From assembly GCA_002709755.1 (NCBI GenBank), contig PAQN01000026.1:36115-79676 (forward strand): a DNA stretch of 43,562 nucleotides, read 5' to 3'. The notes under the pieces are model-generated. The model was not told where the DNA came from. It did not search any database and saw nothing but the letters and a program-made list of their open reading frames with translations. The stretch is from Phycisphaerae bacterium. GTDB taxonomy: Bacteria > Planctomycetota > Phycisphaerae > Phycisphaerales > SM1A02. The first letter of the stretch is position 1. Each line of letters opens with the position of its first letter. The position numbers were made by a program, and so were the translations under genes. Positions 2,110 to 6,316 of this stretch are shown one piece after another.

Positions 2110-2388
2110 TCAGAAGAGCTGGATCGAGTCCTCCGAGTGAACTTTCACGATCGCTCGCTTGATCGAGCCCGTGGTGACATAGCCGTGCTTGCGACGAAGT
2201 GTCTCACCGCGGCGACGCTGGGTGGCGACTCCGACGACACGAACGCCGTAGATCTCCTCAACCGCACGCTTCACATCGGCCTTGGTGGCTCGACGATCGA
2301 TTTCGAAGGTGAAGCGGTTGTACTCGCTGGAATCGATCGTCGCCTTTTCGGTGATGACCGGCTTCTTGATGATCGTGGTGGCTTCCAT
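2110..2388 (-). CDS. rplW: 50S ribosomal protein L23
   Basis: L23 lies at the tunnel exit and is the docking site for trigger factor and SRP. The 92-residue product has the family start (IIKKPVITEKAT), an FEIDRRATKADVKRAVEEIYGV helix segment and the basic loop (QRRRGETLRRKHGYV). Its ATG overlaps the TGA of rplD by one base at 2388, the tight coupling expected in this operon. The 60 nt between it and rplB holds only a short spacer. Confidence 0.96.
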   Translation of the reverse strand: MEATTIIKKPVITEKATIDSSEYNRFTFEIDRRATKADVKRAVEEIYGVRVVGVATQRRRGETLRRKHGYVTTGSIKRAIVKVHSEDSIQLF

Positions 2389-3065
2389 CAGGCGGCCTCC
2401 TTCTCTTCGCTGTCCTTGCCGTAGCAGGAGGAATCGATGAAGGATTCGAGCGAAGCTCGATCGATCACCAGATAGCGGTGGTTGAGAACGTCGAACGCGT
2501 TGAGCTGATCGACGCGAATGGTGTCGACATTGGCCAGGTTCCGTGCGGAGAGCGCGGCATCCCGGTTGGTCGGGTCGAGCGCCACCAGGCAGGTTCGGTC
2601 CACGCCGAGGGCCTTCAGAATGGCGGCCATTTCGCTGGTCTTGGGTGCGTCGAAGTCGAGATTGTCGACGACCTTGATCTCCTCGATCATGGCACCCTCG
2701 TAGTTCATCATCTTGGCCAGAACCGAGTTTCGGTTGGCGAGACGCCGCATCTGCTTGCTCATCTTGCGACGGAAGCTGTCACGGGTCTTCGCGAAAGCGA
2801 CGCCGCCGCCGCGTCGGATGACGGTGCGGTTCGCACCCATTCGCGCGTTGCCGGTGCCCTTCTGGCGATAGATCTTTCGAGTGGACCCCTTGACCATGCC
2901 GCGGCTCTTCGTGCGAGCGCTGGCCTGACGCTGGTTTCCGTGGACGATCACGTAGGCCTGCTTCAGCAGTGCGCTTCGGATCTCGGGTCCGCCAAGGGTG
3001 GTTTCGTCGATCTCGACGGTATCCACCTTGGCGCCGCTCTTGTTGTAGACAGGAAGTTCAATCAT
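2388..3065 (-). CDS. rplD: 50S ribosomal protein L4
   Basis: L4 binds 23S rRNA and its loop reaches the exit tunnel. In E. coli and some other bacteria it also represses its own S10 operon. The 225-residue product carries the conserved internal loop (RQASARTKSRGMVKGSTRKIYRQKGTGNAR, about residues 48-77, in two parts) and a C-terminal Rossmann-like half. It begins MIELPVYNKSGAKVDTVEI. An AAGG-type ribosome site lies about 10 nt before the start. A 6-bp GC stem with an AGAA loop on the transcribed strand (3082-3097) lies just upstream and could affect its translation. Confidence 0.96.
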   Translation of the reverse strand: MIELPVYNKSGAKVDTVEIDETTLGGPEIRSALLKQAYVIVHGNQRQASARTKSRGMVKGSTRKIYRQKGTGNARMGANRTVIRRGGGVAFAKTRDSFRRKMSKQMRRLANRNSVLAKMMNYEGAMIEEIKVVDNLDFDAPKTSEMAAILKALGVDRTCLVALDPTNRDAALSARNLANVDTIRVDQLNAFDVLNHRYLVIDRASLESFIDSSCYGKDSEEKEAA

Positions 3066-3225: not shown

Positions 3226-3921
3226 TCAGCCTTTGTCGGCTGCCGCCTGTGCCTTTGCTTTCGGCTTGTAAAGCCTCGAGGGTGTCTTGATGTGGAGAAT
3301 GCCGGTGTTGGGACCGGGAACCGGACCCTTCACAAGCATGAGATTTCGTTCGTTGTCGATCGAGACCACGTCCAACGAGCGCATGGTGACGCGTTCGCTG
3401 CCCATGTGGCCGGACATGCGTCGGCCCTTCTTGATCTTCGGTCCGGTACCGAGGTTGATGCCGCCACCGCCGATGGAACCGGGGGAACGGTGCGCGCGCT
3501 GGACACCGTGAGATGCCTCGAGGCCTCGGAAGTGATGTCGCTTCATGACACCCTGGAACCCCTTGCCCTTGCTGACGCCTTCGACGTCGACATAGACGAG
3601 GTGGGACAGCGCCTCGACGGTGAGAACCTGTCCGAGCTCGTACTCGGCGACCTCATCGTCGGAATCACAGCGGAATTCCGCATGAACGCGCTTGGGGGCG
3701 GCGCCGGCCTTCGCATCGTGAGCGATCTGCGCACGGGTCGAACGACGGGCCTTCATGTCCTCGAAACCGATCTGAACCGCGCTGTATCCGTCGGTCTCGA
3801 CGGTCTTGAGCTGCGTGACGATGCATGGACCCACTTCGATCACGCTGACGGGAATGTTCTTTCCGTCTTCGGTGAAGTATCGGGTCATTCCAATTTTTCT
3901 TCCGACGAGTTCGATGGGCAT
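3226..3921 (-). CDS. rplC: 50S ribosomal protein L3
   Basis: L3 is an early-assembly large-subunit protein near the peptidyl-transferase centre. The 231-residue product starts MPIELVGRKIGMTRYFTEDG and has the hallmark central region (GFQGVMKRHHFRG, GSIGGGGINLGTGPKIKKGRRM, GHMGSERVT). The GSIG segment matches the family's GSIGxxxxPGRVxKGxxMxGxxG signature with a GGGINLGTG substitution. The C-terminus is extended by an Ala/Lys-rich tail. It is preceded by 106 nt after rpsJ and followed by 160 nt before rplD, the widest gaps in the operon. Confidence 0.95.
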   Translation of the reverse strand: MPIELVGRKIGMTRYFTEDGKNIPVSVIEVGPCIVTQLKTVETDGYSAVQIGFEDMKARRSTRAQIAHDAKAGAAPKRVHAEFRCDSDDEVAEYELGQVLTVEALSHLVYVDVEGVSKGKGFQGVMKRHHFRGLEASHGVQRAHRSPGSIGGGGINLGTGPKIKKGRRMSGHMGSERVTMRSLDVVSIDNERNLMLVKGPVPGPNTGILHIKTPSRLYKPKAKAQAAADKG

Positions 3922-4027
3922 GTCTGTCTTTCAGAGGTGCGAGGTTGAAGTCAGAGGTTCTTGAACGTGACTGGAGTGTGAATTGAAGAAGGCCGCTCGA
4001 ACGCGAGCGACCTTTGAATGCTGCGGG

Positions 4028-4336
4028 CTAGGCCTTGATCTTGACGAACACGCCGGCTGGGACCACGAGACGGTTGAGAGCCTCGACGGTGCGCGGATTG
4101 GGTTCGGTGATGTCGATGATGCGCTTGTGCGTGCGGATTTCAAACTGCTCGCGCGACTTCTTGTCGATGAAGGGCGAACGGTTGACCGTGTAGACCTCAC
4201 GTCGAGTTGGCAGGGGAATCGGTCCAGCGACGATCGCTCCAGTTCGCTTTGCGTGATCGGCGATTTCCTTCGCCGACGCATCGAGCGCCTGGTGATCGTA
4301 GGCTTCCATTCGAATGCGAATCTTGCCGCCGTCCAT
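4028..4336 (-). CDS. rpsJ: 30S ribosomal protein S10
   Basis: S10 is a small-subunit head protein that also acts with NusB in antitermination. The 102-residue product has the family elements: [20 protein letters not shown] at the N-terminus, [35 protein letters not shown] in the middle (in two conserved blocks) and a [10 protein letters not shown] end. It is the first gene of the operon. The start codon at 4334-4336 has no clear Shine-Dalgarno sequence, with only a weak GGAT about 10 nt upstream. No fusA or tuf gene precedes it; the region upstream is a leader and promoter. Confidence 0.96.
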
Positions 4337-4611
4337 AGTGGATCAATCCAAACCAATTCAAAGAGGAGTGTCACCGAAGCGGTGAGTCGTCCCTGCCAGT
4401 TGAAGCGATGGACTGCACGTTGCGATCCATCTCGCACGCCTGCCCACGAGGACGTCCAGTGTCTTTTCGCTGCGTTCGAAGGAGACTTCGAAACCGTTGA
4501 CGCCTTGAGGACAGGCCGAATGAGAACACTTGGAACTCAGAGTGTTTCGACCATCATGACGTGCGGTGGGGACGCGTTAAGACAGGACGCCTGCACGAAG
4601 ACAGGCGCGAA
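4337..4611 (-). promoter_or_regulatory. Structured 5' leader of the S10 operon
   Basis: The predicted transcript has a leader of about 275 nt before rpsJ. In order from the 5' end it holds perfect inverted repeats at 4588-4593/4602-4607, 4525-4530/4541-4546, 4475-4481/4486-4492 (7 bp, 4-nt loop), 4407-4412/4426-4431 and 4371-4375/4381-4385. The last lies about 35 nt before the start codon. This arrangement resembles ribosomal-protein autoregulatory leaders such as the L4-controlled S10 leader of E. coli. That function is inference, and no match to a known RNA family was established. Confidence 0.5.
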
Positions 4612-4617
4612 TCGGAG

Positions 4618-4645
4618 ATGATAGAGATTCCACCCCCCCTGTCAA
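4618..4645 (-). promoter_or_regulatory. Sigma70-type promoter of the S10 operon
   Basis: On the minus strand a perfect TTGACA (4640-4645) is followed after 16 nt by TATCAT (4618-4623), five of six matches to the -10 consensus. Transcription would start near 4611. This is the best-matching promoter found in the window, as expected for a ribosomal operon. Confidence 0.75.
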
Positions 4646-4723
4646 CACACGAAACGGACTCATGACATCTTTCTTCTGGATCCTCCCTGTCGCTGCGAGG
4701 CGGTCGTGCGTCCGAGTCTTCGC

Positions 4724-4729
4724 TACCAT
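4724..4729 (+). promoter_or_regulatory. Putative -10 box for the 4739 gene (leaderless-type)
   Basis: TACCAT ends nine bases before the ATG at 4739, so the predicted +1 falls at or next to the start codon. No convincing -35 box or Shine-Dalgarno sequence is visible. Confidence 0.35.
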
Positions 4730-4738
4730 GACGATGAC

Positions 4739-6316
4739 ATGAACCTCAATCCACACGACACAGTTCGAAGATGCGCCGGCCCTCCCTTCCTGGGGCTGCT
4801 GATGATGCCGCTGATCTGGCCGATAGGGTCTCCAAGCGACTCTCAGAATTGCTTTTATCAGACGGCGGCTTTCGCCCACGTCCTCACGACGTCGACGAGC
4901 CAGGCAGGCATGGCTTCAAACACCCCTCAGGACCAACTGCAAGGCGACCTCGAGGCCGAAACGCGCGAATTCTCTGAAAAAGTGGGCCTGCATTTCATCG
5001 TGCCGTCCGGAGCAGGTGCACGAGATGTCCGGCAAGGCGGGCGGGACGTCCTGATGATGCTGGATGAGGCCACGCCCCCGAAATGGTCGATCACGTTCCA
5101 AAGGCTTGATAATGGGCAACTTGGAGAAACGACCACCTCCCGAATCGACAGCCTCCTGGAGGGGCTGAAAGCCAGAAACGACCCTGCCACCCTGATGGAA
5201 CGGACCAAACTGAAGATCAGAGTGATGGGTGGCACCGAACCCCAGGGATTTCCAGCCGAGCTGATGTACCTCAACGTGCCCCTCGATGGTGATCGAGTGG
5301 GCATCAGCGGCCTTCTGATCATTCAGACGGGTTTGTCGAACTTTCTCTATGGAACCCTCTTTGCGGAGGGCCAAGGCTTCGAAGCCACCCTGAAACCGAT
5401 GCTTAACGAGCTCTATGCGAATCTTCGCATCGAACCCGAAGACACTCGAAGGGAGCTCGATTCGAAGAGAATCGCTTCAGGAACGCAATTGATCGAGCTG
5501 ATCACCCCGGATGTTCTTCGCACGATCGCGACGGAGACCGAACCGGAGATCTACAGGATCTATGAAGAAGGACAGGATGGGACCCCCAATGAAATCGGCT
5601 GGCAGAGGCTGACCGCGAGACTGGCCCCGGTCGAGGCGGTCGAGGGCAGGACGCCATCCGATGTCGATCCACGGGACATGGGTCTTCTGATCACGCTCGA
5701 AGGGGAGATCGTGAGTGGATTCGCTCAGTCCAGAGTGACCACGGACACCATCCGACGGCACTGGATTTCATTGGACAGGAGCCGGGAACGCTGGTCGGTG
5801 CAACGCACCCCCAGAAGGCTCATTTCAACCAGCAACCGAAGGGTCGAGTCCGAAGTGGGCAACACGCAGGCCGAAACGGGTGTGAGAACACCACCTCAGC
5901 CGAGGGCCACGATCACGATCATCGACTCCGAGGGGATGAGAAACACGCTCGATGTCCCTCAGCCCCCGGTTCCCTACATGACCCAGACGGAGCTCTACGT
6001 GTTGGGGAGAATCCTCAAACAGATCTCCCTCACCGACGAGGTCAAGGCCGACTGGTACGTCCTCGATCGTTCCATACCCAGAGGGGATGGCATCAGAAAA
6101 CGACAGGACCACATCGTTCCCGCCGACGAAGGGCGGGGATGGAGGGTCTCGACTCTTGGACCCTCGGGCACCTTCGAACAGACATTCGACGGCCAGGGGT
6201 CCAGGCTCTTCAAGAAAACGCCCATCATCGAGGGGGATCGTCTTCTGATCCTCGAGAAAACGGACCCCAATCGACTGCTCGAACTCTATGCTGAACAGGG
6301 TATCCCCACTCGCTGA
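4739..6316 (+). CDS. Hypothetical exported protein
   Basis: I do not recognise a family for this 525-residue protein. The ATG at 4739 gives MNLNPHDTVRRCAGPPFLGL, where a basic start is followed by a hydrophobic stretch (LGLLMMPLIWPIG). This suggests a signal peptide or membrane anchor; an ATG at 4706 is possible but adds a charged front. The body is hydrophilic, mixed alpha/beta in appearance and rich in Glu, Arg and Thr. No metal or catalytic motif stands out. The C-terminal quarter, from MTQTELYVLGRILKQISL on, looks like a separate domain. It precedes a glycosyltransferase by 51 nt and may be co-transcribed with it. Envelope function is only a guess from context. Confidence 0.7.
   Translation: MNLNPHDTVRRCAGPPFLGLLMMPLIWPIGSPSDSQNCFYQTAAFAHVLTTSTSQAGMASNTPQDQLQGDLEAETREFSEKVGLHFIVPSGAGARDVRQGGRDVLMMLDEATPPKWSITFQRLDNGQLGETTTSRIDSLLEGLKARNDPATLMERTKLKIRVMGGTEPQGFPAELMYLNVPLDGDRVGISGLLIIQTGLSNFLYGTLFAEGQGFEATLKPMLNELYANLRIEPEDTRRELDSKRIASGTQLIELITPDVLRTIATETEPEIYRIYEEGQDGTPNEIGWQRLTARLAPVEAVEGRTPSDVDPRDMGLLITLEGEIVSGFAQSRVTTDTIRRHWISLDRSRERWSVQRTPRRLISTSNRRVESEVGNTQAETGVRTPPQPRATITIIDSEGMRNTLDVPQPPVPYMTQTELYVLGRILKQISLTDEVKADWYVLDRSIPRGDGIRKRQDHIVPADEGRGWRVSTLGPSGTFEQTFDGQGSRLFKKTPIIEGDRLLILEKTDPNRLLELYAEQGIPTR

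Follow-up and report, generated by a model that had tools for sequence, protein, structure and literature searches.

A translation-gene promoter element and a 5′-terminal RNA hairpin at the S10 operon of Phycisphaerae

The region upstream of rpsJ in the window (the whole 43,562-nt stretch of contig PAQN01000026.1 from a Phycisphaerae bacterium that was analysed) is the promoter and 5′ untranslated region of the S10 operon, and its conserved feature is a promoter element together with an RNA hairpin at the 5′ terminus. This feature is smaller and more widely shared than an earlier sequence-only reading had proposed, which saw a strong promoter and a long leader of at least five hairpins, possibly used for autoregulation by ribosomal protein L4. 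The best explanation, to which we assign a probability of roughly 0.45, is a class of strong promoters for translation genes whose transcripts would be stabilized by a 5′-terminal hairpin. Computation yielded the position and conservation of the feature, its covarying arms, the bias of its mismatches toward the RNA strand and its recurrence before other translation genes; the stabilizing function is what these properties suggest. The coordinates are collected in Table 1.

Table 1 Features of the S10 promoter, leader and first operon genes in the window
Feature	Position	Strand	Basis or remark
−35 element TTGACA	4640..4645	−	Motif scan; exact TTGACA in 98/111 S10 promoters of the order
−10 element TATCAT	4618..4623	−	16-bp spacer here and in 109/111 S10 promoters of the order
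Discriminator / first transcribed bases CGATTCGC	4607..4614	−	Conserved; column frequencies in 111 S10 promoters
Predicted transcription start	4610..4612	−	6–8 nt past the −10; inferred from −10 spacing
H1, conserved 5′-terminal hairpin GCGCCUGU-CUUCGU-GCAGGCGU	4587..4608 (inverted repeat 4607-4588)	−	Fold, position-specific excess folding, arm-swap, G.U tolerance
H2 inverted repeat	4525..4546	−	No conservation seen outside the closest relatives
H3 inverted repeat	4475..4492	−	No conservation seen outside the closest relatives
H4 inverted repeat	4407..4431	−	Almost invariant across three relatives; uninformative
H5 inverted repeat	4371..4385	−	Inner pair broken in both close relatives
rpsJ (S10), heading the operon	4028..4336	−	Pfam Ribosomal_S10, PF00338
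rplC (L3)	3226..3921	−	Pfam PF00297
rplD (L4), same operon as rpsJ	2388..3065	−	Pfam PF00573

The strong promoter suspected before rpsJ was confirmed. TTGACA and TATCAT together gave 11 of 12 matches, and the S10 promoter was the sole occurrence of TTGACA-N15..18-TANNNT in the window (0.13 expected); the rpsJ ATG lies 281 nt downstream of the end of the −10. The bases after the −10 read CTC-CGATTCGC, and a start about 6–8 nt past the −10 is supported by locus L180, whose promoter carries the same element and has a tRNA gene beginning 14 nt past its −10. The divergent neighbour of rpsJ (window 4706-6316, + strand) encodes a 536-aa protein that gave no Pfam match.

Comparison across the order revealed that this arrangement is general at S10. 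Of 121 genomes, 118 contained a match to rpsJ; omission of the three in which S10 was cut off (G041, G044 and G050) left 115 upstream loci, which were read. A promoter score of at least 10 was reached by 111 of the 115 upstream regions, compared with 10.1 expected after shuffling; the remaining four were L016, L021, L043 and L078. Conservation in these 111 promoters extended beyond the hexamers and the spacer (Table 1) into the bases after the −10, with C at positions 3 (0.55) and 4 (0.86), G at 5 (0.70), A/G at 6 (0.80), T/C at 7 (0.99), T at 8 (0.78) and C at 9 and 11 (0.76 each). The exact form N3-5-RTTCGC occurred in only 34 of the 111 S10 promoters, so the CGATTCGC-like element is a consensus and not a fixed word; the same form was found in 14 of 30 rplM promoters, and other families of the order carry different forms of the discriminator element.

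Folding of 32-nt sliding windows, compared with dinucleotide shuffles, revealed an excess confined to the beginning of the S10 leaders: mean z was −0.85, −1.13, −1.32 and −0.55 at offsets 0–12 after the −10, and −0.34 or weaker beyond offset 12. Across the S10 loci the hairpins begin near the predicted transcript end, and their stem sequences differ. A stem of at least 5 pairs starting at positions 6–16 was present in 74 of 111 loci, against 38 expected and 28 in a segment 45 nt downstream; the other 37 transcripts, taken from their predicted starts, lack a qualifying 5′ stem. The H1 stem of the window occupies positions 10–31 after the −10, which places it 2–4 nt past the predicted start; a distance of 2–4 nt from the 5′ end is about the limit for protection by 5′ hairpins in E. 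coli.

The pairing of the two arms was analysed by cutting the sequences 20 nt after the −10 and exchanging the 3′ halves between species (arm-swap), with the 111 S10 sequences thinned to 90. Natural sequences averaged −12.97 kcal/mol compared with −10.04 kcal/mol for the chimeras (sd 0.22, z −13), and controls at offsets 30, 60 and 90 gave z values of −1.7, −2.2 and −0.2. A similar result was obtained at rplM (z −6.8, n = 26, thinned from 30 loci). The H1 stem itself is identical in the two closest relatives of the window; its covariation therefore rests on more distant genomes.

Mismatches inside the stems pointed to the strand on which the structure matters. From 164 hairpin sequences, 147 of them distinct and 97 of these with a helix (60 starting by position 16, the others further in), we counted 33 G.T and 6 A.C mismatches, where 54% G.T was expected from composition (p 7e-5); control segments 45 nt on contained 9 G.T and 6 A.C. 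Because a G.T on one DNA strand corresponds to an A.C on the other, the predominance of G.T points to selection at the RNA level. The same asymmetry disfavours a DNA palindrome bound by a repressor.

The element is largely a mark of translation genes. In the window's own genome, TTGA-N17..19-TANNNT-N4..6-TTCGC occurred at the S10 promoter and at one other site, before rplM-rpsI (L13-S9). A search of 76 family genomes for TTGAC-N16..18-TANNNT-N3..5-RTTCGC gave 81 matches in 46 genomes, compared with 6 in the reversed control, and 72 of the 81 preceded translation genes, nine being before other or unassigned genes. The 72 comprised S10 (32, most assigned by their position beside rpsJ matches), L13 (21, of which 11 agree with places found in the rplM search and 10 come from translations), S16 (4), L32 (3), IF-1, L35 and EF-G (1 each), tRNA (5) and rRNA (4; one 16S and three 23S). 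For S16, L32, IF-1, L35 and EF-G, a single example of each was checked with Pfam, the last matching GTP_EFTU and being called EF-G by eye. At the 30 rplM loci read, out of 59 genomes with rplM matches, every promoter scored at least 10 and 29 had the 16-bp spacer. At two tRNA-Met loci (L180 and L181) the element takes the form CAGTTCGC or CGGTTCGC and the 5′ leaders are very short, the tRNA starting just 14 nt past the −10.

A clear hairpin marks S10, L13 and the stable RNAs; at the other protein genes it is putative. Arm-swap of stable-RNA promoters gave z −5.2 (n = 11, thinned from 14, five of the loci being without the exact element: L148, L151, L154, L327 and L338), and the S16, L32, IF-1, L35 and EF-G promoters gave no significant signal (z −0.7, n = 8, thinned from 10). 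Some sign of a hairpin also came from a mixed set of 19 promoters before other genes (z −2.8). One locus, L333, was missing from these comparisons. There was little indication that the element is a general feature of strong promoters: among non-S10 promoters (54 matches, 3 in the control) it was rare by eye, but these sets are small and include some chance matches, and the hairpin test at other genes gave the z of −2.8.

The hairpin reaches further than the element, through the class and weakly beyond it. A stricter form of the element, sought in 392 genomes of the phylum, was present in 8 of 10 genomes of the window's family (its own included), in 7 of 21 from the order's other families, in none of 10 from elsewhere in the class and in 1 of the 351 remaining; the controls had 0. 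Of 25 stretches of named assemblies with a strict form, 13 were Phycisphaer- by name, 8 belonged by name to other planctomycetes and 3 to other phyla, and 1 had no lineage. Arm-swap of S10 sequences from other orders of the class gave z −7.0 (n = 23; 21 loci from other orders, after a search in which 29 matches gave new loci, plus L290 and L291), and S10 sequences from other classes of the phylum gave only z −2.0 (n = 17, cut from 21 loci read by promoter score).

These results are consistent with a promoter class, TTGACA-16-TANNNT-N3-CGRTTCGC-like, that would serve the genes of the translation machinery. Transcription would start about 6–8 nt past the −10, and the hairpin would hold the 5′ end paired, which may slow 5′-end-dependent decay of the RppH/RNase E type and so yield long-lived, co-ordinately expressed ribosomal transcripts. 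Decay machinery of the appropriate kind is present: RNase_E_G (PF10150) was detected in 20 of 21 genomes, the single miss being a genome that is 54% complete. Stabilization is a weaker reason for the hairpin at rRNA and tRNA genes, whose precursors are processed and yet carry the element and in part the hairpin. Because the hairpin stands on rRNA precursors, a co-transcriptional role is the strongest rival, in which a hairpin in the nascent RNA prevents backtracking or R-loops and speeds promoter escape at heavily used promoters. Its occurrence on mRNAs and also at promoters of rRNA and tRNA would fit such a role, as would a fixed distance from the −10 combined with a free stem sequence; at the two tRNA-Met promoters mentioned above, however, no hairpin is possible before the tRNA, and we consider promoter escape rather unlikely as the main function.

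The 5′ UUCGC and the hairpin could also be read in trans, by an RNA-binding protein or a small RNA that would co-regulate a translation regulon, similarly to TOP mRNAs, in bacteria without ppGpp synthetases. The element does mark many translation genes. Of 21 genomes, one alone (G012, a weak partial match) gave a match to RelA_SpoT (PF04607), and the window's own genome gave none, whereas 11 of 14 control genomes matched; PMC3153485 likewise reports zero RSH proteins in PVC bacteria. Rhodopirellula under stress is reported to repress 18 of 51 ribosomal-protein genes (PMC2754498). Loop lengths, stem lengths and stem sequences vary, however, as the binding sites of a specific protein usually do not, and the candidate factor is hypothetical, making this explanation improbable. 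We regard as rather doubtful, though worth stating, a broader proposition: that Phycisphaerae, apparently lacking RelA/SpoT, tag their translation transcripts with the element and the 5′ hairpin to co-ordinate ribosome synthesis without ppGpp, whether via initiation, 5′-end stability or a binding factor, in an analogue of eukaryotic TOP control. The ribosomal operons of this RelA_SpoT-less lineage (the weak G012 match aside) look ordinary.

It is improbable, too, that the element acts purely as a DNA-level core promoter class, in which a CGRTTCGC-like discriminator sets initiation and the hairpin is incidental. Some tRNA, S16, L32 and L35 promoters do carry the element without a clear hairpin, but covarying arms and the excess of G.U over A.C on the transcribed strand are unexpected if only the DNA is read.

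The remainder of the leader was examined in view of the proposal that L4 represses the S10 operon through the five hairpins, as E. coli L4 does by attenuation and translation repression. The inverted repeats themselves stood up to analysis: five perfect stems of at least 6 bp with loops of up to 15 nt were present, compared with a shuffle mean of 0.8 and none of 400 shuffles reaching five, and with loops of up to 12 nt there were four (shuffle mean 0.68, reached in 2 of 1000). The idea of a structured leader held in part, since the whole leader folded more stably than its shuffles (z −2.63, equalled by 1 of 200), but the predicted minimum-energy fold differs from a row of five hairpins, the arms of H1 pairing instead with remote stretches of the leader. 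When the sequence was extended into the start of rpsJ, z was only −1.21 and was equalled by 10 of 100 shuffles.

Compensatory changes, which the sequence-only reading had suggested looking for in all five stems, were found in the first hairpin, in the more distant genomes, and stayed at shuffle level in H2–H5. Among the 115 loci, only those of G001 and G004, from the same genus, could be aligned with the window over most of the leader. In this three-leader alignment, which has little power, the H1 stem was invariant, H2 had a single compensatory change alongside two broken pairs, the changes in H3, H4 and H5 all broke pairs, and helices 2–5 together contained 8 unpaired cells; double-sided changes affected 1 of 33 pairs, and 337 of 500 shuffles did equally well, so no covariation above shuffles was seen in H2–H5. 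Leader length in the 111 S10 loci of the order, the window's own included, had a median of 110 nt and a range of 23–474 nt, with 60 leaders shorter than 120 nt and 11 of at least 250 nt. Since leaders beyond G001 and G004 differ in both sequence and length, a five-hairpin L4 switch is not a common feature, and the remaining ~240 nt of the window leader, with H2–H5, is peculiar to the closest relatives, and any role for it would be hypothetical.

Searches for known regulatory structures agreed with this picture. Rfam at gathering scores gave zero matches in the window, and a loose threshold applied to the leader added only chance-level ones, to sR55 and, on both strands, to mir-28; a simple consensus scan for terminator-like sites found 0 in 3500-6000, where the shuffle mean was 2.3. 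The S10 leader of E. coli resembles the present one in preceding rpsJ in an operon that encodes L4, and it is unlike it in that here no conserved multi-hairpin leader, terminator-like site or H2–H5 covariation was found. An L4-specific element is also disfavoured because the conserved first hairpin occurs before rRNA, tRNA and other operons. Thus, although the operon encodes L4 and the inverted repeats exceed chance, E. coli-type autoregulation is very unlikely, and that part of the earlier proposal was not borne out. A stringent-control promoter is hardly credible: conserved G+C-rich bases at positions 3–5, between the −10 and the start of translation-gene promoters, do recall ppGpp-sensitive discriminators, whose G+C content correlates with ppGpp repression elsewhere (PMC9825172), but the near-absence of RelA_SpoT from these genomes and the reported absence of RSH proteins from PVC bacteria (PMC3153485) make ppGpp control unlikely.

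Among known systems, 5′-terminal stabilizing stem-loops are the nearest. As in E. coli ompA and papA and B. subtilis aprE, a short stem of free sequence lies at or near the 5′ end, here a predicted one, of a presumably abundant transcript, the structure is conserved while the sequence is not, and the decay machinery is present (RNase E/G, as above). In both species such stem-loops slow the decay of certain mRNAs (PMC3997798), and the cases described there are single genes, whereas here the hairpin, with a putative stabilizing effect, goes together with a promoter element and is repeated ahead of rRNA and ribosomal-protein operons. The 20 r-leaders of Eckert and Weinberg (PMC7247131) likewise are covarying RNA structures in the 5′ UTRs of ribosomal-protein genes; each ligand there has one specific structure, expected before the ribosomal-protein genes of the ligand's own operon, whereas here one simple hairpin is common to several operons and rRNA, the element standing also before rRNA (4) and tRNA (5). 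The string planctomyc- is absent from the main text of that paper, and its Table 1 contains no planctomycete leader. A Rhodopirellula-1 motif in Planctomycetes is named in PMC2864571. Among the literature matches listed (titles and abstract starts, in a coverage outside which most subscription journals fall), there was no description of a planctomycete ribosomal leader or of such a 5′ hairpin.

For the co-ordination of ribosome synthesis without RelA/SpoT in planctomycetes, the 5′ hairpin of S10, L13-S9 and rRNA transcripts offers a concrete candidate that can be mutated. The element also predicts where transcription of translation genes begins, and does so in a group without mapped promoters among the literature matches listed, and most of the long leader in the window is not the conserved part.

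Analysis of antitermination signals gave no support for a boxA/NusB-S10 mechanism in the S10 leader. At least 9 of the 11 positions of the boxA consensus (GCTCTTTRACA) were matched in 4 of 111 leaders, compared with 1.9 expected and 4 in the reversed control. The CTCTTTG core was present in 9 of 111 S10 leaders (~1 expected) from few lineages, including the window (4365-4359, − strand) and both close relatives. A boxA-like GCTCTTTGACA was seen by eye in the rRNA leaders L148 and L177–L179 and, with one change, in L118.

At five loci a 23S rRNA gene lies ~300–400 nt behind its own TTGACA-N15/16-TATNNT promoter (L148, at G000:C3:62760 in the window's own genome, and L177, L178, L179 and L338), and no 16S gene was found beside these promoters in the stretches examined; 16S and 23S thus appear to be separate transcription units in the family of the window organism. 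Elsewhere in the same genome, the promoter at L149 (G000:C4:24980) overlaps the palindrome TGTAGCCATGGCTACA in two near copies, and downstream of this promoter lie, by eye, a gene resembling a DtxR/MntR-type regulator and then a component of a metal-binding ABC system.
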